Shown here: positions 133 to 39,843 of the stretch, piece after piece
Numbering within the stretch: position 1 is the first letter of the stretch
How the letters are laid out: each line of letters starts with the position of its first letter
From: a virus
Direction: 5' to 3' (one strand)
DNA length: 39,843 nt
IMG/VR virus record: IMGVR_UViG_3300033141_005354
Span: 1-39,843 of that record
Position numbers and translations under genes: made by a program
Notes under the pieces: generated by a model
Told to the model about the DNA's origin: nothing
Database searches by the model: none
The model's input: the letters and a program-made list of their open reading frames with translations, nothing else

Positions 133-144
133 TAATAATAATAA

Positions 145-1830: not shown

Positions 1831-1842
1831 AGATGTTTAAAG

Positions 1843-3758: not shown

Positions 3759-3762
3759 AAAC

Positions 3763-4862: not shown

Positions 4863-4875
4863 AGGGTTCAGCATT

Positions 4876-22266: not shown

Positions 22267-22348
22267 AGGGAAAGACATTTACTGCGAAAACTGCAAAATA
22301 GAGATTTACAACGAGCAGAAAAAAAAGAAGAAGCGAGCCCGCCCCTGA
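22259..22348 (+). CDS. Tiny CxxC protein
   Basis: A 29-aa frame begins at ATG 22259, inside the end of the endolysin gene. It reads MIKGKDIYCENCKIEIYNEQ and ends in a Lys/Arg run. CENC is a zinc-type pair but only one is present, so it might dimerise or be inactive. Overlap with the previous stop supports coupled translation. Confidence 0.4.
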   Translation: MIKGKDIYCENCKIEIYNEQKKKKKRARP

Positions 22349-22360
22349 AGGCATTATCGG

Positions 22361-22401
22361 CTATTGGAGAACGGTCCTATACGCTTGGCTTTAGCCAATA
22401 G
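22361..22401 (+). promoter_or_regulatory. Weak stem-loop in intergenic spacer
   Basis: CTATTGG (22361-22367) can pair with CCAATAG (22395-22401). No U-run follows. This is the end of the late/lysis block and may help separate it from the early promoter at 22474, but it is a weak candidate. Confidence 0.3.
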
Positions 22402-22473
22402 GGACAATTCCTTTAAAATTAAAGCCGTAAATGGTAATGTCTTTAATGGACGGGCTGGCTCTTCTTTTAGGTC

Positions 22474-22501
22474 TTGACAGGGTTGCTTGGTTTGTTATAA
22501 T
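22474..22501 (+). promoter_or_regulatory. Strong sigma70-like promoter before the replication gene
   Basis: TTGACA at 22474-22479 and TATAAT at 22496-22501 with a 16-bp spacer, and TGT as the extended -10 immediately before TATAAT. This is the best promoter in the window. It would drive the early region starting with the small ORF at 22524 and the initiator at 22647. Confidence 0.85.
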
Positions 22502-22523
22502 GGAATAATAACTTGAAGTAATT

Positions 22524-22634
22524 ATGAACCACGAAATCGTTGGACAAAATTTAAAAATCGTTAAAAAATTTATTAATTCCAAAGGGAGTAGAATTTGGCT
22601 TCCAACGATGCCAGTGGGTTCTACTCCCTTTTGA
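22524..22634 (+). CDS. Possible 36-aa leader peptide
   Basis: A short frame starts MNHEIVGQNLKIVKKFINSK and ends GSTPF with TGA at 22632-22634, exactly at the end of the hairpin (22581-22631). Translation would run through the hairpin. It may be a leader peptide that controls read-through into the initiator gene, or may be chance. Confidence 0.35.
   Translation: MNHEIVGQNLKIVKKFINSKGSRIWLPTMPVGSTPF
22581..22631 (+). promoter_or_regulatory. Perfect 13-bp hairpin between promoter and initiator gene
   Basis: AAAGGGAGTAGAA (22581-22593) pairs perfectly with TTCTACTCCCTTT (22619-22631). An inner 5-bp stem (TTGGC/GCCAG) extends the structure. Only four T follow, so it may be a weak terminator or attenuator rather than a full stop. 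It lies between the promoter and ATG 22647. Confidence 0.7.
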
Positions 22635-22646
22635 GTTCGTAAAACT

Positions 22647-23408
22647 ATGGAACAACAAACATTATTCAAAGTAAGAGATAAAAGAAATAAAGGTTGGTTT
22701 TGGGTTGAAAATGATTATTTTAATGGTTTTGGAAAGATTTTGGGGGCGAAAGCAATAGCTGTATATGTTTCTCTTTGCCGCCACGCTGATAACGAACAGA
22801 AATGTTTTCCTGCCCAAAAGACAATTGCCGAAGAAACTAAATTGGGAGAAAGAACGGTAAGAAATATTATCAGAGAGCTTGAAAAATATAAAATTATTGA
22901 AACAACTAAAGAACGAAACTCCCGAGGGCAATGGCTTAATAATGTTTATTGGTTATTAGATAAAAGTGAATGGATATATCCACCAGAGGCAACCAGTGCC
23001 GATGGTAAGCCAGAGGCAAAAAACGACATATCCAGAGGCAAAAAACGACATATCCAGAGGCAACCAGTGCCGCTTAACAATACTAATAGGAACAATACTA
23101 ATAATAATATTATATTACATACAAAACAAAGTTTTGATGACCTTAATTCATTAATTTATTTATTTAAAAATGTTAATCCTTCTTATAAACAACTATTTAA
23201 AAGAAAAACAGAACGAAATGCTTTGGAACGCCTTATTAAGGAGCACGGCGTAGATAAAATTACTAAAATTATTAAAATACTTCCTAAGAGCAACCAAATT
23301 AAATATGCCCCAATTATTACTACGCCCATTCAATTAGAAAATAAACTCGGTGTTTTATTAGCTTTTTTTAAACAAGAAAGCGGTAAAAGCCGAAAAATCA
23401 AATTATGA
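22647..23408 (+). CDS. Phage replication initiator, lambda O-like organisation (HTH_36 domain)
   Basis: The 253-aa protein has an N-terminal winged-helix region (residues 32-92: LGAKAIAVYVSLCRHADN, PAQKTIAEETKLGERTVRNI, IRELEKYKIIETTKER), typical of phage O-like or DnaD-like initiators. The linker (113-142) is coded by a DNA repeat array (22983-23072), followed by an A/T-rich stretch and a basic C-terminal domain. Iterons within the initiator gene followed by A/T-rich DNA is the organisation of lambda ori in gene O. It probably binds these iterons and recruits host helicase. The stop overlaps the next ATG. Confidence 0.75.
   Translation: MEQQTLFKVRDKRNKGWFWVENDYFNGFGKILGAKAIAVYVSLCRHADNEQKCFPAQKTIAEETKLGERTVRNIIRELEKYKIIETTKERNSRGQWLNNVYWLLDKSEWIYPPEATSADGKPEAKNDISRGKKRHIQRQPVPLNNTNRNNTNNNIILHTKQSFDDLNSLIYLFKNVNPSYKQLFKRKTERNALERLIKEHGVDKITKIIKILPKSNQIKYAPIITTPIQLENKLGVLLAFFKQESGKSRKIKL
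22983..23072 (+). repeat. Four iterons (candidate replication origin)
   Basis: Four copies of a CCAGAGGCA core begin at 22983, 23010, 23032 and 23054. The spacing between the last three is exactly 22 bp, two turns of the helix. The outer two copies share CCAGAGGCAACCAGTGCCG, the inner two share CCAGAGGCAAAAAACGACAT. As 22 is not a multiple of 3, the repeats are in different reading frames, so selection must be on DNA. A/T-rich DNA follows at 23073-23175. Confidence 0.85.
23073..23175. other. A/T-rich tract next to iterons (possible DNA unwinding element)
   Basis: About 80% A/T over 100 bp, including many AATA and TTAATTTA steps, directly after the four iterons and inside the initiator gene. 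This matches the layout expected of a melting region in an iteron origin. Confidence 0.55.
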
Positions 23409-23692
23409 GAGAGATTTCTAAAAATTTAATGTGTATTTGTTTAAGAAACGGGATAGAAATTTGGGTGGAAAAAGAAAAAGCCCAACGCTTGATTGATTTA
23501 TTGGGAACAACAAAAACTAAATTTGTGGAAATAGGAAATGAAATAATTAATTCGGTAGATGTATTGGGAGTTTTTAATGCCGCAACTATGGCTGATTTAA
23601 AAATGAGAAAACAAGGTAAATGGCAATGTAAATGGGGGACTTGGCATTATAATGGGGATACTTGTGAGTGTTGGAGATTAGAAAAAAACTAA
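23405..23692 (+). CDS. Hypothetical protein downstream of the initiator
   Basis: The 95-aa protein starts with ATG overlapping the initiator stop (ATGA). Its C-terminus has several Cys/Trp residues (WQCKWGTWHYNGDTCECW), and the N-terminus is beta-like (NLMCICLRNGIEIWVEKEKA). No known family. In position it resembles a lambda P-type partner gene, but its small size argues against a helicase loader. Confidence 0.6.
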   Translation: MREISKNLMCICLRNGIEIWVEKEKAQRLIDLLGTTKTKFVEIGNEIINSVDVLGVFNAATMADLKMRKQGKWQCKWGTWHYNGDTCECWRLEKN

Positions 23693-23704
23693 AAACAAAA
23701 AGAG

Positions 23705-23714
23705 TTTTCCACAG
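23705..23714 (+). promoter_or_regulatory. DnaA-box-like element, second copy
   Basis: TTTTCCACAG 8 bp upstream of the TTGACA at 23723. Same sequence and spacing as at 21749. Confidence 0.55.
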
Positions 23715-23722
23715 GTTAGCTC

Positions 23723-23750
23723 TTGACAAAGCCCTTGGCTATGCTAAAAT
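23723..23750 (+). promoter_or_regulatory. Promoter upstream of the small membrane peptide
   Basis: TTGACA (23723-23728), 16-bp spacer, TGC extended -10, then TAAAAT (23745-23750). It lies 20 nt before ATG 23771 and would transcribe the small early genes that follow. Confidence 0.75.
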
Positions 23751-23770
23751 GATAAAAAAAGGATAAAATT

Positions 23771-23860
23771 ATGACCCAAGTTATTTGTATCATTATCGGA
23801 TTATTAGCGGGGCTTATGATAGGATTTGTTATATGGAAATTAGAAGAGCCGCATTTTTAA
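23771..23860 (+). CDS. Small single-pass membrane peptide
   Basis: A 29-aa frame with one hydrophobic helix (VICIIIGLLAGLMIGFVIW) and a short charged tail. It has a promoter 20 nt upstream, which supports expression. No family is recognised. Small membrane peptides are frequent in phage early regions. Confidence 0.55.
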   Translation: MTQVICIIIGLLAGLMIGFVIWKLEEPHF

Positions 23861-23867
23861 GAAATAT

Positions 23868-24050
23868 ATGAAAAAAGAAAAAATAAAAAGATTAAGAGAC
23901 AAAATGGTTTATGATATGTGGCAGCAAAAGAAGAGCGATTGGGCAATGCAGGATTTGGCGGTGTTCTTCAATCTAAGCTTGCCGCATATCTATCGCATTA
24001 TTAGAAGAGAAACCGCAAACCAAAGGTCGGTAAAAAAAATAAGAAGCTAA
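23868..24050 (+). CDS. Small helix-turn-helix-like basic protein
   Basis: The 60-aa protein is basic and helical. Residues 22-50 (WAMQDLAVFFNLSLPHIYRI) look like a helix-turn-helix with LSLPHIYRII as recognition helix. Its start MKKEKIKRLRDK resembles the repeated start cassette used further downstream. It may be a small transcription regulator of early genes. An AAAGGTCGG element overlaps its 3' end. Confidence 0.5.
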   Translation: MKKEKIKRLRDKMVYDMWQQKKSDWAMQDLAVFFNLSLPHIYRIIRRETANQRSVKKIRS

Positions 24051-24054
24051 AATT

Positions 24055-24279
24055 ATGACCGAGGAATCAAAAAGGTTAAAGATTGACATTATGATTACCC
24101 GTGACGGAGAAGAAGTAATTAAAGGTTCGGCTTATGGTTTTGAGGCGGCGGAGGAAGAGCTTGGAAAATTGGAGCGGTTTTGTAAGAATCATACTTTTTG
24201 CGGCAAATGCGGAGATATTGTCCGAAGTGAAATAGGGTTTGAGGAAGGCGATACTCTATGCGGTCGTTGCGCTTATTAA
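24055..24279 (+). CDS. Zinc-ribbon protein
   Basis: The 74-aa protein carries two CxxC pairs: CGKC (residues 49-52) and CGRC near the C-terminus, typical of a zinc ribbon. The N-terminus is a beta-type stretch (RLKIDIMITRDGEEVIKGSA). It ends CGRCAY. DNA or RNA binding is possible; the family is not identified. Confidence 0.65.
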   Translation: MTEESKRLKIDIMITRDGEEVIKGSAYGFEAAEEELGKLERFCKNHTFCGKCGDIVRSEIGFEEGDTLCGRCAY

Positions 24280-24283
24280 ATTT

Positions 24284-24676
24284 ATGGCGATTAAACAAAA
24301 AAGCCCTGCCGAATTGGGGCTTGACCGAAAAATTAAAGCTTGGGAGAAAAAGGATTTAGGGGCTCAAATAGGCGGTCTTATCCACGATGCGGTAGCCCTA
24401 ACCGTGGCGGAGAAGAAGCTAAAACCCGAGAGAATTAAATTCTGGCTTAATACCTTATACAATATATCGGAGAGCAAGAAAACTGAATTAACCGCCCCCA
24501 AGCCAATTCCAGACCCTTTTAAAATAAATGAGGAGTGGGAAAGGCGAATGAAGCAGGACAGGGCTGAGGCGCTGGCGGACGAAGCTAACCGCCAAGCTAT
24601 GGAAGCGGCAGAATACCAAAAAGAGAACCCTCCCGACGAAGAGGATATACCAATAATAGAGAAAGAAAATAAATAA
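24284..24676 (+). CDS. Hypothetical charged protein
   Basis: The 130-aa protein is chosen with ATG 24284, 4 nt after the upstream stop, rather than an in-frame codon at 24239 that overlaps the zinc-ribbon gene. It is helical and charged: IKAWEKKDLGAQIGGLIHDA, ERIKFWLNTLYNISESKKTE and an acidic tail DEEDIPIIEKENK. No family is recognised. A gene without canonical start follows in another frame. Confidence 0.65.
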   Translation: MAIKQKSPAELGLDRKIKAWEKKDLGAQIGGLIHDAVALTVAEKKLKPERIKFWLNTLYNISESKKTELTAPKPIPDPFKINEEWERRMKQDRAEALADEANRQAMEAAEYQKENPPDEEDIPIIEKENK

Positions 24677-24878
24677 AAAGAGTAAAAAGAAAGACATATA
24701 TATAAAAAACTGGGAAAAGAAAAGAGATGAATTATTAGATAAAATAAAGTTAGTTGTTCATTGCTGGAGCGAACCGGGGGAAAACAATAAACATATTTAT
24801 TATGCCGAGGGCTATAACCAAGCCATTAAGGATTTAGAAGAAATCAAAGAGGAAATTAAAAAAGAAAACCTAAGATGA
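24669..24878 (+). CDS. Coding frame without a standard start codon
   Basis: An open frame from 24660 to the TGA at 24876 reads like a small phage protein (YIKNWEKKRDELLDKIKLVV, then GYNQAIKDLEEIKEEIKKEN) but has no ATG, GTG or TTG. Possible starts are ATA 24669, or a +1 shift of ribosomes at the stop of the previous gene (24674). Its TGA overlaps the ATG of the next gene (ATGA at 24875), which supports real coding. Coordinates assume ATA. Confidence 0.5.
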   Translation: MNKKSKKKDIYIKNWEKKRDELLDKIKLVVHCWSEPGENNKHIYYAEGYNQAIKDLEEIKEEIKKENLR

Positions 24879-25198
24879 CCTTAACTAATCAAGTCCCGCA
24901 GCAATGCCCAAAGTGCGGGAGCTCCATAAAATTAGTGCCCGCAGGCGTGAGTAAACGCACGGGGAAGCCGTATAACGCTTTTTATGCTTGCTCAAATAGG
25001 GATTGCGATTATATTTTTCGGCAACCCTCAAAACAGGACAAAATTGTAGAGGCGTTAAAGCAAATCCTTAAAAATCAGGTTGCGATTTCGCAAAAGATTG
25101 ATAAATTGGCGGGCAGTTTTGAGGCATTTACCTTAATTTTTACCAAACAAGATGACCCACAAGGAACAAGCCAAGATGATACTTCGGAAATATCCTGA
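24875..25198 (+). CDS. Zinc-ribbon protein (topoisomerase-type zinc finger)
   Basis: The 107-aa protein has CPKCGSSIKLVPAGVSKRTG followed by FYACSNRDCDYIF, i.e. CxxC...CxxxxC spacing like the zinc ribbons at the C-terminus of topoisomerase I. The C-terminal half is a helical region (QDKIVEALKQILKNQVAISQ). A single-strand DNA or RNA binding role is plausible. The last 47 nt overlap the next gene. Confidence 0.65.
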   Translation: MTLTNQVPQQCPKCGSSIKLVPAGVSKRTGKPYNAFYACSNRDCDYIFRQPSKQDKIVEALKQILKNQVAISQKIDKLAGSFEAFTLIFTKQDDPQGTSQDDTSEIS

Positions 25199-25511
25199 AA
25201 GTAGATATAACAGGGGCAAGTTTATGTATTACTGGTGTCAGGAGTTTTTAGGGGTGGGCGAGTTCGGCATAACTAAGAGCAAGTTTCTGGAATTCTGGGA
25301 GCACGAGGCGGCTCTGGAAAGAACCTTGCGGGACCTCTTAAAAGAACCAGAATTTAAACTTCAGCCCGAACAGGAAGCCAAGCGGCGGGAAAAACAGGCG
25401 GAATTCAGACGCTGGAAACAGAACCTAAAAGATAAAGAAGATTTTGAGAAAGTTTTCGGCGAGAAAACCTATGACGAGGAAATAGAGGAAGAGGACGAAA
25501 TTCCATTTTAA
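25152..25511 (+). CDS. Hypothetical protein with an SSB-like acidic C-terminal tail
   Basis: The 119-aa protein is helical and charged (REKQAEFRRWKQNLKDKEDF) and ends KTYDEEIEEEDEIPF. A final acidic stretch with terminal I-P-F is the hallmark of bacterial SSB C-termini, which recruit SSB partners. The rest of the protein does not look like an OB fold. It may recruit host SSB partners or replace SSB contacts in phage replication; that is inference. Confidence 0.6.
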   Translation: MTHKEQAKMILRKYPESRYNRGKFMYYWCQEFLGVGEFGITKSKFLEFWEHEAALERTLRDLLKEPEFKLQPEQEAKRREKQAEFRRWKQNLKDKEDFEKVFGEKTYDEEIEEEDEIPF

Positions 25512-25530
25512 AAATCTAAAAAACTTTATT

Positions 25531-25866
25531 ATGAAACAATTATATCAAGGGGACATAGTTCTTCTCCCCCTAAAAGAAGAACCAAAAGGTCTTAAATTTT
25601 CAAAGCTGAAAGAAGATTTAGTCGTGGCGGAAGGCGAAATAACTGGACATCGGCATATCTTAAAAGTAAAAGAAGGGAGATATAGAGCCGATTTAGAAAT
25701 AGCCAGAGACGAAAACGGCTTTTATTTGAAGATAAACAGCGGCAAAGCCGAGTTGTTTCACGACAAGCACAAAGTTCAGACGATTACACCAACCCCGAAA
25801 ATCTGGTTTATCGGTCAGCAGGTTGAATATGACGAAATTAAGGAAATAAGGCGGGTTCAAGATTAA
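25531..25866 (+). CDS. DUF6745-associated conserved phage/MGE protein
   Basis: The 111-aa protein begins LYQGDIVLLPLKEEPKGLKF and contains VVAEGEITGHRHIL. The pattern QGDVxLxPv...xxxxGEvTGHxH...YDxxxIRRVxD is known from genes that sit next to DUF6745 proteins in phages and mobile elements. The C-terminus here fits (YDEIKEIRRVQD). The next gene, 2 nt downstream, is the DUF6745-type partner. Function of the pair is unknown. Confidence 0.65.
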   Translation: MKQLYQGDIVLLPLKEEPKGLKFSKLKEDLVVAEGEITGHRHILKVKEGRYRADLEIARDENGFYLKINSGKAELFHDKHKVQTITPTPKIWFIGQQVEYDEIKEIRRVQD

Positions 25867-27683: not shown

Positions 27684-27800
27684 ATGAAGAAAAGCAGCAT
27701 TTCTGGGGGCGGACTACACAGAATTCAATGCCAACCTCTTGACAATGTTGGTGAGTGTAGCCAACCCCCAAAAGTGCTGTTAACCAACCAAAAACCCTAA
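27684..27800 (+). CDS. Possible 38-aa peptide within structured RNA
   Basis: A frame starts MKKSSISGGGLHRIQCQPLD and ends LLTNQKP with TAA. It uses a start similar to the shared cassette, but its body is the strongly paired element 27693-27781. RNA structure is a better explanation of the conserved-looking pairs than coding. It is listed for completeness. Confidence 0.25.
   Translation: MKKSSISGGGLHRIQCQPLDNVGECSQPPKVLLTNQKP
27693..27781 (+). ncRNA. Structured RNA candidate (three nested stems)
   Basis: Outer stem: 27693-27709 pairs with 27765-27781, 17 positions with one mismatch and two G-U. Middle stem: CTACAC (27714-27719) with GTGTAG (27755-27760). Inner stem: CCAAC (27731-27735) with GTTGG (27747-27751), extended by G-U pairs. 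It sits between two short genes. No known RNA family is recognised. Confidence 0.55.
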
Positions 27801-30529: not shown

Positions 30530-30558
30530 TTGACAATTCCTCAAAAATTTGCTATAAA
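30530..30558 (+). promoter_or_regulatory. Strong leaderless promoter
   Basis: TTGACA (30530-30535), 17-bp spacer, TGC extended -10 and TATAAA (30553-30558). The next ATG is at 30565, 7 nt further, where transcription should begin. It may also drive the packaging block beyond 31059, since no + strand terminator was seen between them. Confidence 0.8.
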
Positions 30559-30564
30559 GGGAAA

Positions 30565-30636
30565 ATGAAACTTGAAGAGAAAAGCTTCCCAAAGTTTTGC
30601 TATGCTTGCGGAAAGAGCAGGTTTGTTTTTATGTAA
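30565..30636 (+). CDS. Tiny CxxC peptide after a leaderless promoter
   Basis: A 23-aa frame reads MKLEEKSFPKFCYACGKSRF and ends VFM. CYAC is a zinc-type pair. ATG coincides with the expected transcription start. Short length makes it uncertain. Confidence 0.4.
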   Translation: MKLEEKSFPKFCYACGKSRFVFM

Positions 30637-30673
30637 AAAAATCCCCCTTTTACATTAACCCGTGAAAAGAGGG
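30635..30673 (-). terminator. Minus-strand intrinsic terminator
   Basis: On the minus strand, CCCTCTTTT (30673-30665) pairs with AAAAGGGGG (30651-30643), 9 bp including one U-G, followed by ATTTTTTT (30642-30635). This is a good intrinsic terminator for the 44-aa gene at 30729-30863. On the + strand the same position has a C-A mismatch and no U-run, so it acts in one direction. Confidence 0.75.
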
Positions 30674-30728
30674 AAAAAAGCGGAGGTTTAACACCAGTTA
30701 TTATTAAGACGGGCAATTCTCAGAGTTA

Positions 30729-30863
30729 TTACAGGCACCGGCAACCATACCAAAGCGGGCAGAAATCATAAGTTGAAGCCCATATCAGCACCTTAACTAA
30801 CCAATAAGCGGCGGTAATTACTCCGAGAAACCAGAAAAACCTAATTATTGTTATCTTTTTCAT
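30729..30863 (-). CDS. 44-aa membrane protein on the minus strand
   Basis: ATG at 30863 (minus strand) starts MKKITIIRFFWFLGVITAAY, continues WLVKVLIWAS and ends in a Cys-containing tail (CPLWYGCRCL). One hydrophobic helix, three Cys at the C-terminus. It is the only gene of a unit with its own promoter, structured leader and terminator. A single membrane-bound host-interaction (moron-like) role is plausible. No family is recognised. Confidence 0.7.
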   Translation of the reverse strand: MKKITIIRFFWFLGVITAAYWLVKVLIWASTYDFCPLWYGCRCL

Positions 30864-30999
30864 AGTTTTAGAGGGCGGTTTATTCCAAGCGATAACCGCC
30901 CAGAAAACGTTATATAATTAAAGAGCCGCTTAGCGGAGGTAGCCCGCCAAGCGGCATATAAATCGCGGCTACCTCGCGGGAGAGTTATTCACACTCTCT
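30864..30999 (-). promoter_or_regulatory. Structured 5' leader with pseudoknot potential
   Basis: In minus-strand RNA the leader of about 136 nt contains: GAGAG/CTCTC near the 5' end (30994-30998 with 30980-30984), a 9-bp stem GAGGTAGCC/GGCTACCTC (30975-30967 with 30944-30936), a 7-bp stem GCCGCTT/AAGCGGC (30955-30949 with 30931-30925) that interlocks with it in H-type order, and an 8-bp hairpin GGGCGGTT/AACCGCCC (30901-30894 with 30880-30873) 9 nt before the ATG. It looks like a riboregulator or riboswitch. No known class matched. Confidence 0.55.
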
Positions 31000-31005
31000 A
31001 TTATC

Positions 31006-31033
31006 AGTATAGCATACCCAAAAACCCTGTCAA
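31006..31033 (-). promoter_or_regulatory. Minus-strand promoter of the 44-aa gene
   Basis: On the minus strand: TTGACA (31033-31028), 16-bp spacer, TGC extended -10 and TATACT (31011-31006). Expected start near 30999. The spacer closely resembles those of the promoters at 22474 and 23723. Confidence 0.8.
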
Positions 31034-31040
31034 GAGGCGG

Positions 31041-31050
31041 CTGTGGAAAA
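31041..31050 (-). promoter_or_regulatory. DnaA-box-like element, third copy (minus strand)
   Basis: TTTTCCACAG on the minus strand, 7 bp upstream of the -35 at 31033. Same 10-mer as at 21749 and 23705. Confidence 0.55.
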
Positions 31051-31690: not shown

Positions 31691-32092
31691 ATGAAATGTT
31701 TAAATTGCGGCAAAGAATTTATATCTAGAAGAAAAGATGCTGTTTTCTGTTCCTCTAAATGCCGCAAACAAGCGTTCTTGGAACGCAAAAAAGGGAACGG
31801 AACGGATAAATTAACAAGGAACGGAACGGATAATGGAACGGATAATGGAACGGATAAATTAACTTATACAGTAGTAGAAGGCAAAAAAGTTTATGGCAGG
31901 CGGGCTGTAATATATGAACACGAAAAAAACGGCATAACCAATTCTCTCGGAGCTGTTTGGAAGATGAGGCCAGAACCAGAGAACCCCGATGATATTCCAG
32001 ATGAGGACAACCGCTGTATTTATACGAGAAAAGACGGTTCACGGTATCTGATTGATGCTCTGGGAAAACAGGCGGAGATAAGCGTAGAATAG
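31691..32092 (+). CDS. Zinc-finger protein with NGTD repeat
   Basis: The 133-aa protein begins MKCLNCGKEFISRRKDAVFC and has CSSKCRKQAF, i.e. two CxxC/CxxxC pairs of a zinc ribbon. A short NGTD repeat (RNGTDNGTDNGTDKLT) is coded by a 12-bp tandem repeat. The C-terminus (YTRKDGSRYLIDALGKQAEI) is beta-like. It lies between the terminase subunits; role unknown. Confidence 0.65.
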   Translation: MKCLNCGKEFISRRKDAVFCSSKCRKQAFLERKKGNGTDKLTRNGTDNGTDNGTDKLTYTVVEGKKVYGRRAVIYEHEKNGITNSLGAVWKMRPEPENPDDIPDEDNRCIYTRKDGSRYLIDALGKQAEISVE

Positions 32093-32180
32093 GGGGGGGA
32101 GTGAGGCGAGTTGGGGAGAAGGGATTTAGGTATATATCCTCCCCACAGAAAAAACCCAAATTTGACAACTTTTGATAAGA

Positions 32181-32210
32181 GAATTCAAGAGAATTCAAGA
32201 GAATTCAAGA
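32181..32210 (+). repeat. Three perfect 10-bp direct repeats before the terminase large subunit
   Basis: GAATTCAAGA is repeated three times without a gap (32181-32210) and a fourth partial copy follows. It ends 10 nt before ATG 32220. A terminase binding site is conceivable from position. Confidence 0.8.
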
Positions 32211-32219
32211 GAACTACTT

Positions 32220-33551
32220 ATGATTTCAGACGCTAAAATACAGGAAAAACTGAAATGGCGGCCCCATTCTGGACAGCAGGAGGTGCTTGATTGCCAGAAC
32301 AGGGAGGTGATAGTAGCCGCTGGAAGGGGCTGGGGAAAGAGCCAGCTGATGGCGTATATCGTTTTTAGGGAATTAGCCCGCTATCTGCTGGATAAGAAGT
32401 CCTTCAAATCGTTTATAATAGCGCCTACTTATCAGTTGACGGAAAAAGTATTTGAGCATTTTTTGGGAACATTTCTCTTAAAATACAATAAAGGATTGGG
32501 AAGGTTTGTCTCGGGCGGCTCAAATAGACCTTACGAGTTCAAGTATTCGGCGGATACTTGGATACAATGCAAGTCTACGACTGAGCCGAATTCTATGCTT
32601 GGAGAAAGGGTGGATTTGGAGATAGTTGATGAGGCGGCGAGGATACCGGCCAAGATATACCGCCAGAATATCAGACCGGCTTGCCCAAAGGGAAGAGTTT
32701 ACTACATTTCCACGCCGAGGGGAAGAAACTGGTTTCAGGACAAATTTTATGCTTTAAGGGAAAAGAACGCTTCCTTCCAGTTTTCTTCAACGGACGGGGT
32801 TTATTACACAGAGGAGATGATAAACGAGGAGAAAAAAGAGACGCCAGAATTATTGTTCAGGCAGGAGTATTTGGCGGAATTTGTTTCTAATGCCGGCTCG
32901 GTATTCCAGAACATAGATAAAATAATCAGGGATAACATACAGGAAGACGCTGTCCCGAACAGAAACTATATCATAGGCATAGATATGGCGGAGACCCACG
33001 ACTGGACGGTTATGGTCGTGATAGATACCTCAACCCATAATGTTGTCCATATAGACAGGTTTAAGGGAAGGGATTACCCGCTGCAGAAGCAGCATATTAT
33101 AGCTAAAGCCAGAAGATACAATAACGCTCGGATAGTTATGGATGCCTCTGGCGTGGGAAAGCCGATATACGAGGATTTGAGGCAATCGGGCTTAATGGTG
33201 GAAGATTTCGTTTTCACGGGGCGGAGCAAGAAAGAGCTTATAGGAAAGCTGATAGTGGCGGTTGAGAACCAGTATATCCAAATTCCCCGCTATCAAATCT
33301 TGATAGATGAGCTGAAAGCGTACGAGTATAAGTGGGTAAACGAGAAAACTGGCTTGCCGTTAAAGGAAATACAGTATGGACATCCTATCGGATTTACGGA
33401 CGATTGCGTGGACGCTCTGGCTCTGGCGGTCTGGGACTTGCCCTCCTTTAAGCCGAGAATTAAAACCCCCGTGGAGGAAGAAATAGAGAGGATAGGGAAG
33501 GCCGCAAAATACGGGGGAAAAAGAAGATTAAGAAAATTTTCAATGATATAA
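32220..33551 (+). CDS. terL: Terminase large subunit
   Basis: The 443-aa protein carries Walker A GRGWGKS (35-41), Walker B-like LEIVDEAA (133-140) with catalytic Glu, the coupling STPRGRNWFQ motif, and the nuclease acidic cluster: GIDMAETHDW (about 257), MDASGVGKP and TDDCVDALALA. It pumps DNA into the prohead and cuts it. ATG 32220 was chosen over an in-frame TTG at 32172 because the latter lies in the 10-bp repeats. Length is normal for Terminase_6-type subunits. Confidence 0.92.
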   Translation: MISDAKIQEKLKWRPHSGQQEVLDCQNREVIVAAGRGWGKSQLMAYIVFRELARYLLDKKSFKSFIIAPTYQLTEKVFEHFLGTFLLKYNKGLGRFVSGGSNRPYEFKYSADTWIQCKSTTEPNSMLGERVDLEIVDEAARIPAKIYRQNIRPACPKGRVYYISTPRGRNWFQDKFYALREKNASFQFSSTDGVYYTEEMINEEKKETPELLFRQEYLAEFVSNAGSVFQNIDKIIRDNIQEDAVPNRNYIIGIDMAETHDWTVMVVIDTSTHNVVHIDRFKGRDYPLQKQHIIAKARRYNNARIVMDASGVGKPIYEDLRQSGLMVEDFVFTGRSKKELIGKLIVAVENQYIQIPRYQILIDELKAYEYKWVNEKTGLPLKEIQYGHPIGFTDDCVDALALAVWDLPSFKPRIKTPVEEEIERIGKAAKYGGKRRLRKFSMI

Positions 33552-33557
33552 AATAAT

Positions 33558-33701
33558 ATGCCTTTACCAAAAAAACGTAAAAATGAGGATAAGCAGAAAT
33601 TTATATCCAGATGTATGTCTTCGGAAGTTATGAAGCGGGAATTTCCCGACCCGAAGCAGAGAATTGCCGTTTGCCTTTCGCAGTATAGAAGAAAGAGATA
33701 A
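33558..33701 (+). CDS. Conserved small protein between terminase and portal
   Basis: The 47-aa protein starts MPLPKKRKNEDKQKFISRCM and ends QRIAVCLSQYRRKR. The pattern ISRCM...PDxKQRIAVCxSQ is common in a tiny phage protein coded near terminase or portal. Function is unknown. Confidence 0.7.
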   Translation: MPLPKKRKNEDKQKFISRCMSSEVMKREFPDPKQRIAVCLSQYRRKR

Positions 33702-33735
33702 GCCGCGAAATAATTTAAAACAAGAAAATTATATT

Positions 33736-35451
33736 ATGAATATAGCGGATATAAAAAACGAAATTAAAATTTATGAGGAAACAGAGCTGGAAGGAAACCC
33801 TTCTTACGCCAAAACCCAGCCAGAGCTTTTAGATTTGATTGAGAAGTATTCCAATTCGCAGTTTAGGGATGCGGAATATGACGCTCAGGGCTATAAAAAG
33901 CTGTTTTACAATGTCTCGGACAATCCGAGAGATATCGGAAAAAAGGAGACAGACCTGAATTTGGGTAATGTTCATATCGAGACGGAGTCGGGGCATAATT
34001 ACTACATAGGATGGCTTTACGAAAAAGAATTGCGGTTTTGGATGAAGGAAAATGATATCAGCGTAAAACTGAACCAGCTGAGAAACCATTTTATAGATTA
34101 CGGGACCTGTATCGCCAAAAAAGTTAAAGACAAGGTTTATATAGTTCATCCCAAGAACTTGATATCTGACCCAGAAGCCGAAAACCTTGAAGACTCTGAA
34201 TTTATTATAGAAGTTCATCAGTATGCGCCCAAGACATTGATAGAAATGGGAAGGAAGAAGGGCTGGTATATGAATAAAATTATTGATATTGTAGAGAAGA
34301 GCAAGGGCGGAAAAATCAAGGTTTACGAGAGATACGCCGAGGAAGACGAAAACGGCAACAACTTCTTTTTAATAGCAAAGATAGGCGAAGAATTTTCAGA
34401 AGACGGGATAATATACGAAGGAAGGAGAGAGCCCCAATACAAGGTGGCTAAAATGGAAGAGGTATTCGGAAGATTTCTCGGGAGGGGAGTTATTGAGAAG
34501 CTTTTAGAGCCCCAAATAGCCAAGAATGACATCAATTACTATCTCCAAAAGGGATTAAGAATATCGTCTCTTCATCTGTTCCAGAGCAAAGACCCGAATA
34601 TCGGCAAGAATACCTCGCTTTTAGAGGAAGAAGACGGAGCTATCCTTCACGTTTTAGACGACATAAATGCAGTTCCGCTGGAAGAAAGAAATCTGCCCGC
34701 TTACAGCTATTTAGACCAATTATGGGAAAAAAACATAGAAGAGAGGTCTTTCTCTTACGAGGCAATGGGAGGACAAAGACCGCCCGCGGGGCTTACTCTG
34801 GGAAGCCACCAGTTATCAATAATGAAGGCAGGGGGATATTTTGAGGACAAAAAGGATTCTCTCGCCATACTATTTAGAGACATTATTACCGACTGGGTAA
34901 TCCCCGGCTTTAAGAAAAAGAAGAAGAAACTCCATAAGCTTCCAATATCCAAACTGCTTGGCGGAAAAGAAGATTCAAGCCGCTTCTTCAATGCTTTATT
35001 AGCCGAAAGGATGAGGAAAAAACGGCTGGAAATGATGAAAAAGGGCAAATATCTTATGGGGGCTGACTGGGAAATAATCAGAGGAATACAGGCGAAGATA
35101 CTCAAAGAAGAAGACATAATCGTTCCCGACGAAATTTATGAGAATATCAATGAGAAGGTAACGGTTGTCATTACGGGCGAGCAAATCGGAGGGCAAGCAG
35201 AGATAACCGTGCTGAACCTTATTCTTAATATGGCTAACAACAATCCCGCCGTTTTCAATAACCCGACAACAAGAAGGATAATTTCTAAGATATTAGACAG
35301 GTATGGGATAAATCCTGTCGAAATACTGCCAGAAGAAACGCCAGAGATGGAAGAATCGTTAGCGATGGCAAGGGGTATGGAAATGGGCGGTTCGCTTCCC
35401 GCCCCGAATATAACAACTCCCACGATGGTTAGGGCGGGAGCAAGAGTATAG
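33736..35451 (+). CDS. Portal protein
   Basis: The 571-aa protein is taken from ATG 33736, since upstream in-frame codons overlap the preceding gene. It has the length and location of a portal. Segments typical of the wing and stem are present: GRGVIEKLLEPQIAKNDINY, EERSFSYEAMGGQRPPAGLT and WVIPGFKKKKKK. The portal forms the dodecameric DNA gate at one capsid vertex. Flanks: terminase and scaffold. Confidence 0.82.
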   Translation: MNIADIKNEIKIYEETELEGNPSYAKTQPELLDLIEKYSNSQFRDAEYDAQGYKKLFYNVSDNPRDIGKKETDLNLGNVHIETESGHNYYIGWLYEKELRFWMKENDISVKLNQLRNHFIDYGTCIAKKVKDKVYIVHPKNLISDPEAENLEDSEFIIEVHQYAPKTLIEMGRKKGWYMNKIIDIVEKSKGGKIKVYERYAEEDENGNNFFLIAKIGEEFSEDGIIYEGRREPQYKVAKMEEVFGRFLGRGVIEKLLEPQIAKNDINYYLQKGLRISSLHLFQSKDPNIGKNTSLLEEEDGAILHVLDDINAVPLEERNLPAYSYLDQLWEKNIEERSFSYEAMGGQRPPAGLTLGSHQLSIMKAGGYFEDKKDSLAILFRDIITDWVIPGFKKKKKKLHKLPISKLLGGKEDSSRFFNALLAERMRKKRLEMMKKGKYLMGADWEIIRGIQAKILKEEDIIVPDEIYENINEKVTVVITGEQIGGQAEITVLNLILNMANNNPAVFNNPTTRRIISKILDRYGINPVEILPEETPEMEESLAMARGMEMGGSLPAPNITTPTMVRAGARV

Positions 35452-35462
35452 TAAAGTGTAGT

Positions 35463-35660
35463 ATGGATTTTGTAACCCAAAACAAAAAAGAGATAACAGA
35501 TTTCCTTAAAAGCTGGAGAGACGCGATTAAGGAAGAAATATATATGCTTCCCAGAGGAGAAGAAAGGGACGCAAAGATAGATTTCTGCCATTTAATAGAC
35601 GGCAAAATTAAGGAAATTAATTTAGAGCCGAAAGAAAGAGAGCCAGAGAGTATGATATAG
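35463..35660 (+). CDS. Hypothetical small protein after the portal
   Basis: The 65-aa protein (MDFVTQNKKEITDFLKSWRD ... EPKEREPESMI) is charged and helical. It starts 12 nt after the portal stop. No family is recognised; a small head-assembly role is possible. Confidence 0.6.
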   Translation: MDFVTQNKKEITDFLKSWRDAIKEEIYMLPRGEERDAKIDFCHLIDGKIKEINLEPKEREPESMI

Positions 35661-35742
35661 GTTGGGCAACCGTAAGCCCAGAGGCAGGCAAACCTCTATA
35701 AAAACCGTAAAGGTCGGAATCGTTTAATCCGTAAAAACGCAT

Positions 35743-36339
35743 ATGGAAGACGAAAAAGAATTAACATCTCAGGACTCGTCCCCCGAGAAAAACGATACCG
35801 AGGAAGAGGAAGATAATCCTTCTGAAGTATCCGAGGATACAGCCGAGGAACAGATAACGCAATCTTCTTCTTCGGGAGAATTAGCCGAGGGTGGCGGAAA
35901 ACCCTCATCTGTTCCTTACAAGCGTTTCAAGGAAGTGGTCGATGAACGCAATAGGTTGAAGAAACAGATGGAAGGCAAATCCCAGACCACGCCCAAAACC
36001 TTTACAGACGAGCAATGGAAGGAAAGGGTTGATTTCGCCATTAGGCATAGGGATGTTTCCGAAGACGAAATGGATTTCATCTCAAGCTATGCCGCGGGAA
36101 AGGGCATAAGTATGGAAGAGGCATACAAGACCGAATCCATAAAGGATTATTTGAGCTACCAGAGAGAGAAGGCGAAACAGGAGGAGGCGGTCCCCGAACC
36201 TTCGTCAAAGGGGGAAACCTTCAATAAAAAACCCCTTTCTGAACTTTCAAAAGAGGAAATAAGGGAAAATTGGGCGGAAATAAGGGATAAAGCCATTAAA
36301 GAAGGCAAAAGAAAAAGGAAAAAAGACCTCGGTTTATAG
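35743..36339 (+). CDS. Scaffold protein
   Basis: The 198-aa protein has a highly acidic N-terminus (TEEEEDNPSEVSEDTAEEQI), a middle helical region (YKRFKEVVDERNRLKKQMEG) and a basic C-terminus (DKAIKEGKRKRKKD). An acidic, coiled-coil, basic-tail layout immediately before the capsid gene is typical of phage scaffolding proteins, in which the basic end binds the coat. The stop codon lies inside a hairpin (36327-36358). Confidence 0.75.
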   Translation: MEDEKELTSQDSSPEKNDTEEEEDNPSEVSEDTAEEQITQSSSSGELAEGGGKPSSVPYKRFKEVVDERNRLKKQMEGKSQTTPKTFTDEQWKERVDFAIRHRDVSEDEMDFISSYAAGKGISMEEAYKTESIKDYLSYQREKAKQEEAVPEPSSKGETFNKKPLSELSKEEIRENWAEIRDKAIKEGKRKRKKDLGL

Positions 36340-36358
36340 TTTAGCGATTAAGCCGAGG
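36327..36358 (+). promoter_or_regulatory. Hairpin across the scaffold stop, before the capsid gene
   Basis: CCTCGGTTTA (36327-36336) pairs with TAAGCCGAGG (36349-36358), 10 bp including one G-U. The capsid ATG is at 36369, 10 nt after the stem. It could modulate the ratio of capsid to scaffold or protect the mRNA end. Confidence 0.55.
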
Positions 36359-36368
36359 TTGATAAGAT

Positions 36369-36913
36369 ATGGCGTTTACACCTTTTACTGGAACGTACAG
36401 CAGCGGCGACTTGCAGTATGTCATTAACACCCTTTACAGCCCCAAGGTAGAGAGAGAATATCGAGCTAATCTGGTTGCTGGCGATTTCTTTGACAACTTG
36501 TCTGGAATGTTCGCGGGCGGAGGAGGTCATCTAAGCATACCCGACATTTTTACAAACCAGTTTACCGCTCAGGATAAGAGCACTGGTTCAAATGTCACCG
36601 AGCAGTCCCCCGCCGAAGCGGAACTGACCTTGACCGTTGACACTTGGAAGGAGGTCTCCTACGTAATTGAAGACCGCCAGCTGAAACAGATTATGGCAGG
36701 TTCAGATGTTTTGGACGCTTACGCTTCACAAGCGAAGTATTTAATCGCCAAGGCATTAGACACCAGCTTAATGGCTCTTTATTCAGGGCTTTCCCAGACG
36801 GTTAATGACACGGCTTCAGATGTAACCGACGCAGATGTCAGGCAAGCTATTGAGAGCATTGTTGACGGCGATGTTCCAATGCAGAGGTTGGCTTTCTTCT
36901 TTCATCCGACGGT
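36369..36913 (+). CDS. Major capsid protein, exon 1
   Basis: Codons 1 to 181 plus two bases of codon 182. The protein starts MAFTPFTGTYSSGDLQYVIN and exon 1 ends in RLAFFFHPT followed by GT of a Val codon. Continuing into the intron gives SKLPPLTAML and an unrelated basic tail. Joining 36913 to 37692 yields HPTV-IWHDLFGISKYTGVYD, a smooth capsid sequence, and an intact frame of 915 nt (304 aa). The coat is a HK97/P22-type fold by position and length; it directly follows the scaffold gene. Confidence 0.88.
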
Positions 36914-37108
36914 AAGTAAATTGCCGCCATTAACAGCAATGTTAATTGGAAAATTCTGTAAATTGCAGGGAAAACTCAAGAAGTTTATCTGCAGGCAAGC
37001 AACGGCAATAAAAAAAGCCGTTGAAGCTTCAACGACCATAATCAGAACACCCCTTGTGGGTGAAGGAATGGTCTGAACTCTATAGCGATATAGAGAGGCA
37101 ATAAGAAA

Positions 37109-37612
37109 TTATTGTCCGCCTTGATAAGAATTAGCTCTTTTACACTCTAACCACCAGTTATCTATCAGAATCCTGTCCTGTTTTGTATATTTTTTACGAA
37201 GACCCTTCTTAATACGCCAGTCAAGAAAGTTATACAAAACAGAAACAGCCCTAACTTTTTTGTAGGGTATGGAAGTATCTAAAAAGATTTTACATAGTTT
37301 GTGGCATATTATCACATTTGTGCAAGTCCAAACATAACCCTTTTTAGTATTTCCTATTTTGTAAGGATTTGGTAGGTGACCGAGATAGTTATGGTCTGAA
37401 CGAACCCAAATACTGCCACCATATCTATTTTTAATCCACTTAAGAACTGATAAATCATCATCTCTTAAGCCAATAGATATTTGTGGACGGTATAGATAAT
37501 ATGATGTTGGACCATCTGATTTCTTGTATGTTTTATGGTATCTGACTAAAGAGGCAGAACCATCAGCATAAAAGAAGCCACGAAATTCAGCGTCATTTAT
37601 AGAGTGTTTCAT
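37109..37612 (-). CDS. LAGLIDADG homing endonuclease encoded antisense in the intron
   Basis: The 167-aa protein has the LAGLIDADG-type motif FRGFFYADGSASL at residues 10-22, followed by YRPQISIGLRDDDLSVLKWI, YGGSIWVRSD and a helical DNA-contact region LDWRIKKGLRKKYTKQDR. It has one motif, so it would act as a homodimer. It lies wholly in the intron after the P7/S element but on the opposite strand to the capsid gene. A minus-strand TTGACA at 37670-37665 may drive it. It would cut intron-less capsid alleles to spread the intron. Confidence 0.85.
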   Translation of the reverse strand: MKHSINDAEFRGFFYADGSASLVRYHKTYKKSDGPTSYYLYRPQISIGLRDDDLSVLKWIKNRYGGSIWVRSDHNYLGHLPNPYKIGNTKKGYVWTCTNVIICHKLCKIFLDTSIPYKKVRAVSVLYNFLDWRIKKGLRKKYTKQDRILIDNWWLECKRANSYQGGQ

Positions 37613-37641
37613 ATTTTATATGATTATTTATTACTATCTCT

Positions 37642-37670
37642 ATGGTAGGGTGGAAGAGATAATTTGTCAA
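37642..37670 (-). promoter_or_regulatory. Possible promoter of the homing endonuclease gene
   Basis: On the minus strand TTGACA (37670-37665), 17-bp spacer and TACCAT (37647-37642), a weak -10. It lies 30 nt before ATG 37612 and inside the intron's 3' part. Confidence 0.35.
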
Positions 37671-37691
37671 GGTCATAAAAGCAACAGATTG

Positions 37692-38061
37692 AATTTGGCA
37701 CGACTTATTTGGAATTTCCAAATACACGGGCGTCTATGATTCAGACCCAGTAGTAACTGGTATGCTTGGCGGAGGCGCTACCGAAGCCAGAAAGAATGCT
37801 GTGCGCGGTCGGCTCTACGGCGTACCCGTGTACGAAACCACGCAGGTTCAGGCAGACGGAGCTTCGTCCGCTTACTACAACTTGCTGGCAGCCCCAGAAG
37901 CATTTATGTTCGCTGTCCAAATCGGACCGAGAAGCCAAGCCAATTACATTCCCGAGCAATTGGGAACGCTTTGGACAACCGATATCCTTTACGGAGTCGC
38001 TGAAAAGAGAGACGCAGCAGCCGTTGTTATCAGGTCCAGACAGACAGGGGTAGTATCTTAG
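37692..38061 (+). CDS. Major capsid protein, exon 2
   Basis: Completes codon 182 and runs to TAG at 38059-38061. It reads IWHDLFGISKYTGVYDSDPV and continues with MLGGGATEARKNAVRGRLYG, VPVYETTQVQ and AAVVIRSRQTGVVS. An internal ATG at 37762 could yield a short in-frame fragment, but the upstream exon and the splice joint show it is part of the coat. Splicing must occur for virion formation. Confidence 0.88.
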
Positions 38062-38114
38062 TATAAGATAACCTCGGTTTGAGAGCATTTATTAAGAGTC
38101 CTTGTGCTTAAAGT

Positions 38115-38140
38115 CCTCCCAGCCCTTTTGGGCTGGGGGG
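38115..38140 (+). terminator. GC-rich hairpin after the capsid gene
   Basis: CCCAGCCC (38118-38125) pairs with GGGCTGGG (38130-38137) around a TTTT loop, extended to 11 bp with one U-G. No U-run follows, so it may stop transcription weakly or stabilise the capsid mRNA. Confidence 0.55.
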
Positions 38141-38161
38141 CATAACATAAACTAAAAAAAT

Positions 38162-38614
38162 ATGGAATTACGAGAATTAAGGAATTTCGGAGTAAAAAAG
38201 AAGAGACCCCCGACTTATTATTACAGAAACCAGCACGGGAAAGTTATATCTCTTACAGAGGAGATAGCTTTGGAGCAGCATAAACAGCACCCAGAATATC
38301 TGGGGAGTTCGGAAGATTTAGACAAAACGGGCTTTAATATGCTGGAAGCGATTGCTTCTCATTTGAAGAAGAATGTGTCCAATCCAAAGCCGCCGCCAGA
38401 CAAAAGGCGGGTCGGAAATGCGAAGAATACTTTATCCAGCACTGGGAATGTTGAAGTAAAAGCCCTAAAAAAAGAAATAGAAGAATTAAAGAAAATAATA
38501 AAAAGCGGTTTAAAAAGCGGTTTAAAAAATGGTTTATATAATCAAAAGCCAGAAACAAAAATTGAAGGAAATAGCGGAGACGCTGGAAAAGCACCACAGG
38601 GGAATACTCCCTAA
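38162..38614 (+). CDS. Hypothetical charged protein after the capsid gene
   Basis: The 150-aa protein starts MELRELRNFGVKKKRPPTYY and includes LTEEIALEQHKQHPEYLGSS and a C-terminal Lys-rich helix (VKALKKEIEELKKIIKSGLK) with a repeated SGLK/NGLY motif. It could be a head-completion or tail-attachment protein, from position. No family is recognised. Its 3' part overlaps the next gene by 86 nt. Confidence 0.6.
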   Translation: MELRELRNFGVKKKRPPTYYYRNQHGKVISLTEEIALEQHKQHPEYLGSSEDLDKTGFNMLEAIASHLKKNVSNPKPPPDKRRVGNAKNTLSSTGNVEVKALKKEIEELKKIIKSGLKSGLKNGLYNQKPETKIEGNSGDAGKAPQGNTP

Positions 38615-38864
38615 ATCCGCTTATTCTCCAGACGGAAACCTTTATCCGAGCTCTATTCTTTATGGCGGAAACAAATCCGCCAAAGACAGAATAAATAGAA
38701 AGAAGAACAGGGAAGCGGAAGAGAGGGGGATAGAAAAAATTAAAGAAAAGGCGAAGAACCTTAAAAAGGAAAAAATAGTTTTAACCACCGAAGACCTTAA
38801 AAAAAACCTTGAAAAAAACTCAAAAAACGAAAATATGGGGATTTATCACCGTAGGCGAGGGTGA
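38529..38864 (+). CDS. Hypothetical Lys-rich protein
   Basis: The 111-aa protein is Lys/Glu-rich (KNREAEERGIEKIKEKAKNL). It starts with ATG 38529 inside the previous gene, and its 3' end overlaps the glycosyltransferase start. Its N-terminus MVYIIKSQKQKLKEIAETLE suggests an amphipathic helix. No family is recognised. Confidence 0.55.
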   Translation: MVYIIKSQKQKLKEIAETLEKHHRGILPKSAYSPDGNLYPSSILYGGNKSAKDRINRKKNREAEERGIEKIKEKAKNLKKEKIVLTTEDLKKNLEKNSKNENMGIYHRRRG

Positions 38865-39843
38865 AGTCCACAGATACCTTAAAAACGCCTTAGAACGGCT
38901 CTCAGAGCTCACAGACGGCATTGTAATAGCTTGCAACGCCTCCGATAAAGACACCAGAAGCTATTTGGCGAAAATAAAGAAGGCAAAGGTTTATGATTTT
39001 TCGGAAAGAGAACGCTATGAGTGGGGCAGAAAGCAGAATATAATAAAGCAAAAGCTGTTTTATCTTATGGAAAGGGAAAGCGTGGAAGATGCGTTTTGGG
39101 TGGTCTGTATAGATTCAGATGAAGTATTGGATAAGCGGCTTACGAGGGAAAAACTTGAAGAGCTGACAACCAGAGACGAGATAGCGTATACCTTTTATTG
39201 CGTTCAGTTATGGGACAGCGAAAAGCAGATGAGGGTTGACGGCGGTTGGGGAAATTTCAGGAACGTAAGATTTTATAAATACATTAAAAACGCAGACCAT
39301 TCGTTTCAGAATTCTCCCCTTCATTGCGGATTAGCTCCAATATACGCCTATAAATGGGCGGCAGACGCCGAATATCTGTTCAAGCATTACGGCTATATGA
39401 AGTTAGAGGACAGAAAAAGGAAAGTCCAAAGGTATAACAAGTATGACCCGAACGGAAGGTATTTCAGCAAGAAGTGGTATAACAGTATACTCGGCAAGCC
39501 GACGATTAAGCCGTTTGATGAAGACAAACTGGGCGAGAAACTAAAATACAAGCCCAAAAAACCATTAAAAGACAAATACATATTAAAAGAAATGAAGCAG
39601 AAAATATATTTTATAAAAAATAAATACGGGAAAGTGTTTTCTGTGTCCGAGTCGCAAATTGGAGACCACAAAAGAAAGGGCATTGAAATTATAGGAGAGA
39701 GAGACATAACGGAAATCGGTAAATTCGTTGATGTGAAAGAACTTCCAAAGGAAGAAGATAAGAAAGAAAATCTCGGAAAAATCTCTTATACTTGTCCGAT
39801 ATGCGGTTTTGAAGCAAAAACAAAAGCGGGCTTGTCGGCGCAC
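38809..39843 (+). CDS. Glycosyltransferase family 2 with C-terminal C2H2 zinc finger (continues at position 1)
   Basis: A TTG start at 38809 opens a 350-aa protein that runs past the right end and continues to 132; an alternative ATA start at 38833 is less likely. It begins LKKTQKTKIWGFITVGEGEV and has VIACNASDKD, a YEWGRKQNII region and CIDSDEVLD, whose DSDE would bind the metal and nucleotide-sugar. GWGNFRNVRFYKY is the typical middle. It ends in a C2H2 zinc finger (C329, C332, H345, H349). A Zn finger fused to a GT2 enzyme is unusual. It opens the glycan block that continues at 145. Confidence 0.82.
   Translation, partial: MKKTQKTKIWGFITVGEGEVHRYLKNALERLSELTDGIVIACNASDKDTRSYLAKIKKAKVYDFSERERYEWGRKQNIIKQKLFYLMERESVEDAFWVVCIDSDEVLDKRLTREKLEELTTRDEIAYTFYCVQLWDSEKQMRVDGGWGNFRNVRFYKYIKNADHSFQNSPLHCGLAPIYAYKWAADAEYLFKHYGYMKLEDRKRKVQRYNKYDPNGRYFSKKWYNSILGKPTIKPFDEDKLGEKLKYKPKKPLKDKYILKEMKQKIYFIKNKYGKVFSVSESQIGDHKRKGIEIIGERDITEIGKFVDVKELPKEEDKKENLGKISYTCPICGFEAKTKAGLSAH
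39730..39843. repeat. Terminal direct repeat, right copy (circular overlap)
   Basis: Identical to 1-114. See the entry at position 1. The glycosyltransferase frame crosses without a break, so one copy should be removed when the genome is closed. Confidence 0.95.

Follow-up and report, generated by a model that had tools for sequence, protein, structure and literature searches.

A minus-strand unit with an interleaved-stem leader, a candidate RNA switch, in a phage with a probable Falkowbacteria host

In textbook transcription attenuators and riboswitch expression platforms, the helices share one strand. P4 CI RNA and P1 C4 RNA are immunity leaders with internal complementary segments and premature termination, and phage morons carry their own promoter and terminator in an orientation opposite to that of their neighbours. 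Patescibacteria have tiny genomes and are mostly uncultured, and, on a brief literature search, gene regulation in their phages is not known to have been studied experimentally. Previous studies described the IsrK locus of prophage Gifsy-1, where a short RNA ending at an early terminator is found together with a read-through mRNA carrying small ORFs, with alternative structures (PMC4825925), and the HK022 put RNA, a structured RNA of ~70 nt from an early phage promoter, which is present in two copies per phage and exerts control at the level of termination (PMC9378689).

The virus record analysed here over its whole length of 39,843 bases (the window) contains a minus-strand unit (Table 1) which, like bacterial attenuators and riboswitch platforms, sets a promoter-proximal early helix against a later U-tailed hairpin. 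However, its core stems interleave (a-b-a'-b'), overlap with a' is confined to the upper part of the second hairpin, and it has no leader peptide, T-box or known aptamer (no match in Rfam). P4 CI and P1 C4 resemble the phage leaders in being associated with a replication or early operon and in having a specificity that is exchanged between relatives, whereas no trans pairing partner was found for the unit (in a search of the phage, no leader word of at least 12 was complementary to it outside the leader itself), and the processed immunity RNA and the lysogeny genes belong to P4 and P1. With morons the unit shares its own promoter and terminator, its opposite orientation and the presence of different cargo in the same slot of a relative, but no relative with an empty slot turned up and its cargo protein is putative. 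IsrK is similar in its prophage promoter and in its short versus read-through RNA, although it acts in trans, with its own read-through mRNA as the target (PMC4825925); for the unit, a search of the phage gave no target of this kind, and the two loci are not known to be related in sequence. The unit and put are both structured early-promoter RNAs, two per phage, with control at the level of termination (predicted for the unit), whereas put consists of two stem-loops in similar copies and acts in cis on RNA polymerase, and the copies of the unit have no common stem sequence and a U-rich end (PMC9378689).

Table 1. Features of the minus-strand unit and of the related leaders (window coordinates)
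Feature	Position	Strand	Basis
TTTTCCACA box (DnaA-box-like), 8 bp upstream of -35	31042..31050	-	sequence match
Sigma-70 promoter TTGACA-16-TATACT, extended -10 (TGC)	31006..31033	-	11 of 12 score
Predicted transcription start	30999 (+/- 2 nt)	-	spacing to -10
5' hairpin GAGAGT/ACTCTC, contains TTATTCACA box (30985-30993, + strand)	30980..30998	-	fold
Strand a (GAGGUAGCC), 5' side of 9-bp stem	30967..30975	-	stem search, folding
Strand a' (GGCUACCUC), 3' side of 9-bp stem, within second hairpin	30936..30944	-	stem search, folding
b/b' 7-bp stem	30955-30949 / 30931-30925	-	perfect pairing
13-bp hairpin (GCCGCUUGGCGGG/UCCGCUAAGCGGC), -23.7 kcal/mol; lower 7 bp are b/b'	30955-30943/30937-30925	-	predicted fold
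U-rich tail UCUUUAAUU after 13-bp hairpin	30916..30924	-	terminator scan
8-bp hairpin GGGCGGUU/AACCGCCC before ATG	30901-30894/30880-30873	-	stem search
44-codon ORF MKKITIIRFFWFLGVITAAYWLVKVLIWASTYDFCPLWYGCRCL, one predicted membrane segment, putative coding	30729..30863	-	ORF and hydrophobicity
Intrinsic terminator, 10-bp stem, 13-nt loop, seven T	30635..30674	-	minus strand only
Convergent promoter TTGACA-17-TATAAA; its transcript would be antisense to the unit and head for terS	30530..30558	+	sequence
Second promoter of the same type, TTGACAGGGTTGCTTGGTTTGTTATAAT	22474..22501	+	sequence match
W_plus leader: a 22536-22544, b 22581-22593, a' 22601-22609, b' 22619-22631	22536..22631	+	stems, folding
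L086 leader stems: a ACATCTTCGCA, b AGCCCGCC, a' TGCGAAGATGT, b' GGCGGGCT, then TTTCTTTAATT-ATG

The phage genome and the slot of the unit

Contig L066 aligned to positions 32,806-39,842 of the window and continued into 58-5,525, in pieces of 76-85% identity, and its segment 4345-10690 spans the window end and the window start. Therefore, the ends join and the 39.8-kb genome is circular or circularly permuted. Contig L047, from a Candidatus Falkowbacteria MAG, was 97% identical over 32,087-36,511, and L086, a second contig from the same MAG, was 97% identical over 23,700-25,758 and 96% over 22,437-22,509. These 97% DNA matches point to Candidatus Falkowbacteria (Patescibacteria, Parcubacteria group), a tiny uncultured bacterium, as the most likely host.

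Nearly all apparent genes of the window are on the plus strand, and the minus-strand unit is placed between the early region (RHH, HNH and RNA ligase) and the genes for the two terminase subunits, small and large. The original prediction had described an autonomous, RNA-controlled unit between early and packaging genes, with a minus-strand promoter, a structured leader of about 136 nt with interlocking 9-bp and 7-bp stems in H-type order, an 8-bp hairpin just before the ATG and a one-way intrinsic terminator, and each of these features was recovered, the seven T following the terminator stem on the minus strand only. Judged by its sequence, the autonomous unit is real, and its control by RNA is supported by the recurring leader architecture described below.

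Relatives sought by TerL, TerS and portal (L002, L047, L066, L057 and L068) cover no leader orthologous to that of the unit, and the closest two, L047 and L066, do not reach its slot. In L002 (66% TerL identity over the best segment), the same slot upstream of terS holds an unrelated minus-strand cassette of three ORFs, which has a promoter of its own (1954-1926) and hairpins that resemble terminators and carry U-runs. One of its ORFs specifies a 47-aa protein, hydrophobic in a segment near the C-terminus, that does not align with the 44-aa protein of the window. Such a different cassette in the same slot indirectly supports a cargo or moron-like site. Of the proposed moron, the independent orientation, the promoter and terminator of its own and a slot that is replaced in a relative were found, whereas the cargo protein is putative only.

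The predicted 44-aa membrane protein itself did not gain support: an ORF with one hydrophobic segment is present and its start is A-rich and SD-less like those of most other window genes, but an ATG ORF of at least 44 codons also occurred in 12% of unit shuffles and 13% of 365-nt minus-strand windows. Its codon score lies inside the non-coding range, its synonymous codon choice fits both phage usage (13%) and neutral choice (21%), and no homologue of the protein was found in the searches made. It is possible that the ORF is coding, and the product of interest of the unit may be RNA.

Elsewhere in the genome, 36904-37612 holds a group I intron (Rfam RF00028) and, behind it, a 167-aa ORF on the minus strand; the ORF gave a weak LAGLIDADG match below the Pfam cut-off, and L066 is without 37132-37643, which suggests that this presumed homing-endonuclease ORF was gained or lost recently. 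The large terminase of L002 (3512-5905, 797 aa) carries an intein-like insertion before its C-terminal part. Virion-region proteins at 5093-8371 and 11904-12659 have collagen-like repeats and a C1q-like domain (probable fibres). In addition, a long, nearly perfect hairpin, AGCAGCATTT...AAAGTGCTGTT, lies at 27690-27785 (plus strand) ahead of a run of small genes with the common start context ccaaaccctATGAAGAAA.

The interleaved leaders

The unit leader (31000-30864, hereafter W_minus, the leader at 22.5 kb being W_plus) folds at -55.9 kcal/mol (z -5.4), an energy as low as none of 200 shuffles reached, and ranks within the lowest three by z when 137-nt windows from both strands (1324 in all) are compared; its part 31000-30917 alone gave z -4.6. 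The loop and upper stem of the 13-bp hairpin use most of a', and GUUUU/AAAAC pairing extends the ATG-proximal hairpin to the start region. Against Rfam, at gathering and permissive thresholds, the leader gave only chance matches. No sequence homologue of the unit was found in phages, plasmids, viral contigs, 380 ABY1 genomes and 15 related viral records, the search giving only short promoter or start-codon matches, and the case for the leader therefore does not include column-wise covariation. Thirty viral contigs with GAGGTAGCC...GGCTACCTC were chance palindromes.

Both stems are perfect and in the order a-b-a'-b', which was equalled in 3 of 300 leader shuffles; when the entire genome was searched, 9+7 interleaving appeared somewhere in 22% of whole-window shuffles. 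That last frequency, together with an ORF at chance level, would suit a plain intergenic region in which the promoter is spurious and the inverted repeats arose by chance. We hold this explanation to be very improbable, since a z of -5.4, an extended promoter scoring 11 of 12, a strong one-way terminator and the recurrence described below make joint chance very unlikely.

The recurrence involves two further leaders. W_plus, 142 nt long (z -5.1), follows the second promoter of the window and is followed by UAAAACU-AUG of a DnaD-like replication initiator (ATG at 22647), and in L086 a promoter 96% identical to the 22.5-kb promoter precedes a different leader; for both, 0 of 300 shuffles equalled the interleaving. 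With wider loop limits, three places qualified in the window on both strands against a shuffle mean of 0.6, two of them directly downstream of its two near-identical promoters. The layout was absent at the phage's other promoters and at the L002 minus-strand promoter, most host promoters tested had no interleaving or only the shuffle level (L079 reaches 3/300), and 2 of 119 other viral promoter+TTTAATTAT matches, taken as controls from a loose promoter-plus-tail scan of viral contigs, qualified, weakly. In both W_minus and L086, b' is followed by a U-rich tail, and the two leaders have the tail TCTTTAATTAT in common. Five host-type promoters were found in the phage and two of them have a long leader, both with the interleaved architecture, so the earlier remark that a long leader is unusual holds within this phage.

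The locus G018/L048, picked out by eye as a fourth interleaved leader, has overlapping arms and did not qualify. Used as a family marker, the promoter gave two host-class matches only, one of them L086 itself, and no viral contig, and a search for further L086-type leaders gave nothing useful in 285 genomes. The interleaved evidence consists of three leaders from two close phages, in an architecture found after looking, and across these predicted leaders it is the layout that recurs with replaced stems, not column-by-column covariation. We consider the layout meaningful, and its recurrence elsewhere (W_plus and L086) is the strongest evidence.

At 22.5 kb, the sister phage L086 has a different block, comprising leader and replication-initiator genes, between conserved flanks (window 22509-23700 versus L086:2059-3109), which resembles the exchange of replication or immunity modules. 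A strongly structured intergenic RNA (22330-22465, plus strand, z -5.6) immediately precedes the 22474 promoter; it has a long closing stem, inner hairpins and a U-rich end, and Rfam gave no match for it.

The original prediction had called the leader a pseudoknot, and the H-type helix order is indeed present. A stable or ligand-stabilised H-type pseudoknot could protect the 5' end or control translation of the 44-aa gene: the interleaved order is found in three leaders, the loops of W_plus (36/7/9 nt) allow both stems fully and those of W_minus (11/4/4) nearly so, and the second and ATG-proximal hairpins cover the start region. However, in W_minus the nested 13-bp hairpin (-23.7) beats the pseudoknot stems (-16.0 and -10.9 before penalties) on any ordinary loop penalty, and a full pseudoknot needs a 4-nt loop across the 9-bp stem and loses the upper 6 bp of the hairpin. 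In L086, loop 3 is 0 nt against an 11-bp stem and both stems cannot form in full, and control of translation would concern an ORF that is only putatively coding. The stable pseudoknot is not the predicted minimum-energy state and a:a' is displaced in the computed folds, so this part of the prediction is not supported, and we regard a stable or ligand-stabilised pseudoknot as distinctly unlikely. Because the 13-bp hairpin beats the stems and the pseudoknot costs its upper 6 bp, we read the element as two competing states.

Competing structures as a switch

The a:a' hairpin of W_minus has an energy of -16.0 alone and -21.4 with its best nested additions. In growing-chain folds of W_minus and W_plus, a:a' is complete once a' is made and is replaced by b:b' after b' emerges, the folding order being that of minimum-energy prefixes, a crude stand-in for co-transcriptional kinetics; in L086, the two states are about equal (-15.1 and -14.3). 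A mutually exclusive early helix and later hairpin are therefore present energetically in all three leaders, L086 being balanced. The U-score of the later hairpin is 2.55 in W_minus (tail UCUUUAAUU, weak to moderate), 3.75 in L086 and 1.29 in W_plus, against 4.79 for the terminator at the end of the unit (stem 30674-30665/30651-30642), and because of its score W_plus is not a convincing intrinsic terminator. The fit to a mechanism is uneven: in L086 the U-tract is good and the loops are too short for a full pseudoknot, in W_plus the U-tract is poor and the loops would permit one, and W_minus is intermediate.

The leader of the unit is most likely a co-transcriptional RNA switch, probably an attenuator. 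We propose that the unit is a minus-strand transcript driven by host sigma-70 whose leader acts as a two-state switch of the attenuator type, a tentative proposal to which we would give a little less than an even chance. While RNA polymerase is in the leader, a would pair with a' (9 bp) and mask the middle of the second hairpin; once b' emerges, the 13-bp hairpin would displace a:a', and this hairpin with UCUUUAAUU would weakly terminate transcription or make polymerase pause, yielding a short, ~80-nt RNA. If a:a' persisted, or strand a or the hairpin were bound by some signal, transcription would continue past the ATG hairpin and across the 44-codon ORF as far as the 30635 terminator. The same promoter-plus-switch cassette, with other stem sequences, would stand ahead of the DnaD-like initiator and the matching L086 operon. 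An attenuator is the best single reading of the leaders, a switch acting on translation or stability coming close behind.

Such a switch predicts short and long transcripts from one promoter, shifted by swapping a or b'. Further, we speculate that phages of Patescibacteria have a modular RNA switch linked to a promoter, to be recognised from the a-b-a'-b' layout and not by sequence, before different operons (replication initiator, minus-strand cargo), which is exchanged between sister phages with both stems fully replaced and might serve as an immunity-like or timing device; in this general form the idea is possible and rather unlikely. If true, the recurring cassette would be a first handle on how these phages time replication and cargo genes, and it would represent a class of regulatory RNA that sequence-based RNA families do not see, only the layout being kept.

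Some of the same observations would suit a stand-alone regulatory RNA, comparable to IsrK or the P4/P1 immunity leader RNAs, in which an ~80-nt RNA with its 3' end at 30916-30924 would be the main product, acting in trans or antisense to the convergent terS transcript, and the 365-nt read-through form would be a by-product. The compact fold with its terminator-like end (31000-30917), the convergent promoter at 30530, which would make the two transcripts mutually antisense, the weak support for the ORF, and a leader swap between sister phages that resembles an exchange of immunity specificity are in keeping with it. Yet no convincing trans target was found, the longest phage-complementary words being A+T-rich 12-15-mers in the ORF part and none in the leader, and the leader tail is a modest terminator. 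We consider this explanation unlikely, and the two-state switch remains our preferred reading.

Promoters and DnaA-box-like sites

The promoter at 31033-31006 ranked best among 10 promoter-like sites in 29.0-32.5 kb. It has 83-90% matches at host promoters and an 84% match to the L086 promoter, and promoters of the type CTTGACAGGGTT..TGGGTTTGCTATAATG are also present in host-class genomes. The arrangement TTTTCCACA-N6-11-TTGACA gave 16 matches in 115 ABY1 genomes, whereas a reversed control gave 0 and a second, scrambled one 2; the phage uses it three times (21749, 23705 and 31050). Going by these matches, TTTTCCACA at 6-11 bp ahead of TTGACA is a host-class promoter module.

The box TTATTCACA is rare, occurring once in the window and twice in the 19.4 kb of L002, where both copies bracket the minus-strand promoter in the same slot; in the window, the minus promoter has TTATTCACA on one side and TTTTCCACA on the other. 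Moreover, the density of TTWTNCACA near ABY1 dnaA genes (0.60/kb) is 4 times that of other ABY1 loci (0.16/kb), and in view of this density DnaA control of the unit or a DNA-level role is possible. The repeats might then act as DNA, as a binding site or a replication or packaging site made of DnaA-like boxes and inverted repeats upstream of terS, with transcription secondary, and the boxes around both minus promoters, the density near dnaA and the position of the unit next to terS of a circularly permuted genome would agree with that. However, the interleaved stems follow promoters without such boxes (22.5 kb and L086), L002 has boxes without such repeats, and TTTTCCACA belongs to the promoter module. 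We regard a DNA site as the main function as quite improbable, and prefer the RNA switch here too.

The plus-strand promoter at 30530 may drive terS by antisense passage through the unit. The region 30530-30635 (plus strand) comprises this consensus-like promoter together with a 23-codon ORF (MKLEEKSFPKFCYACGKSRFVFM) that runs head-on into the minus-strand unit.

Tiny hydrophobic ORFs follow the TTTTCCACA module in the phage (29 aa at 23771-23860) and at the host loci L075 and L083. The host-class locus G018 (L048:1501-2083) has the promoter that best matches the one of the unit (83% over 59 nt); overlapping inverted repeats come after this promoter, and a LOOT RNA (RF03000) lies 400 nt downstream. 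In the host class we also observed, at L076:1501-1750, a TTTTCCACA promoter with a 16-codon ORF behind it and then CCAAGCGG/CCGCTTGG and a hairpin with a U tail, an arrangement that looks like a leader-peptide attenuator.
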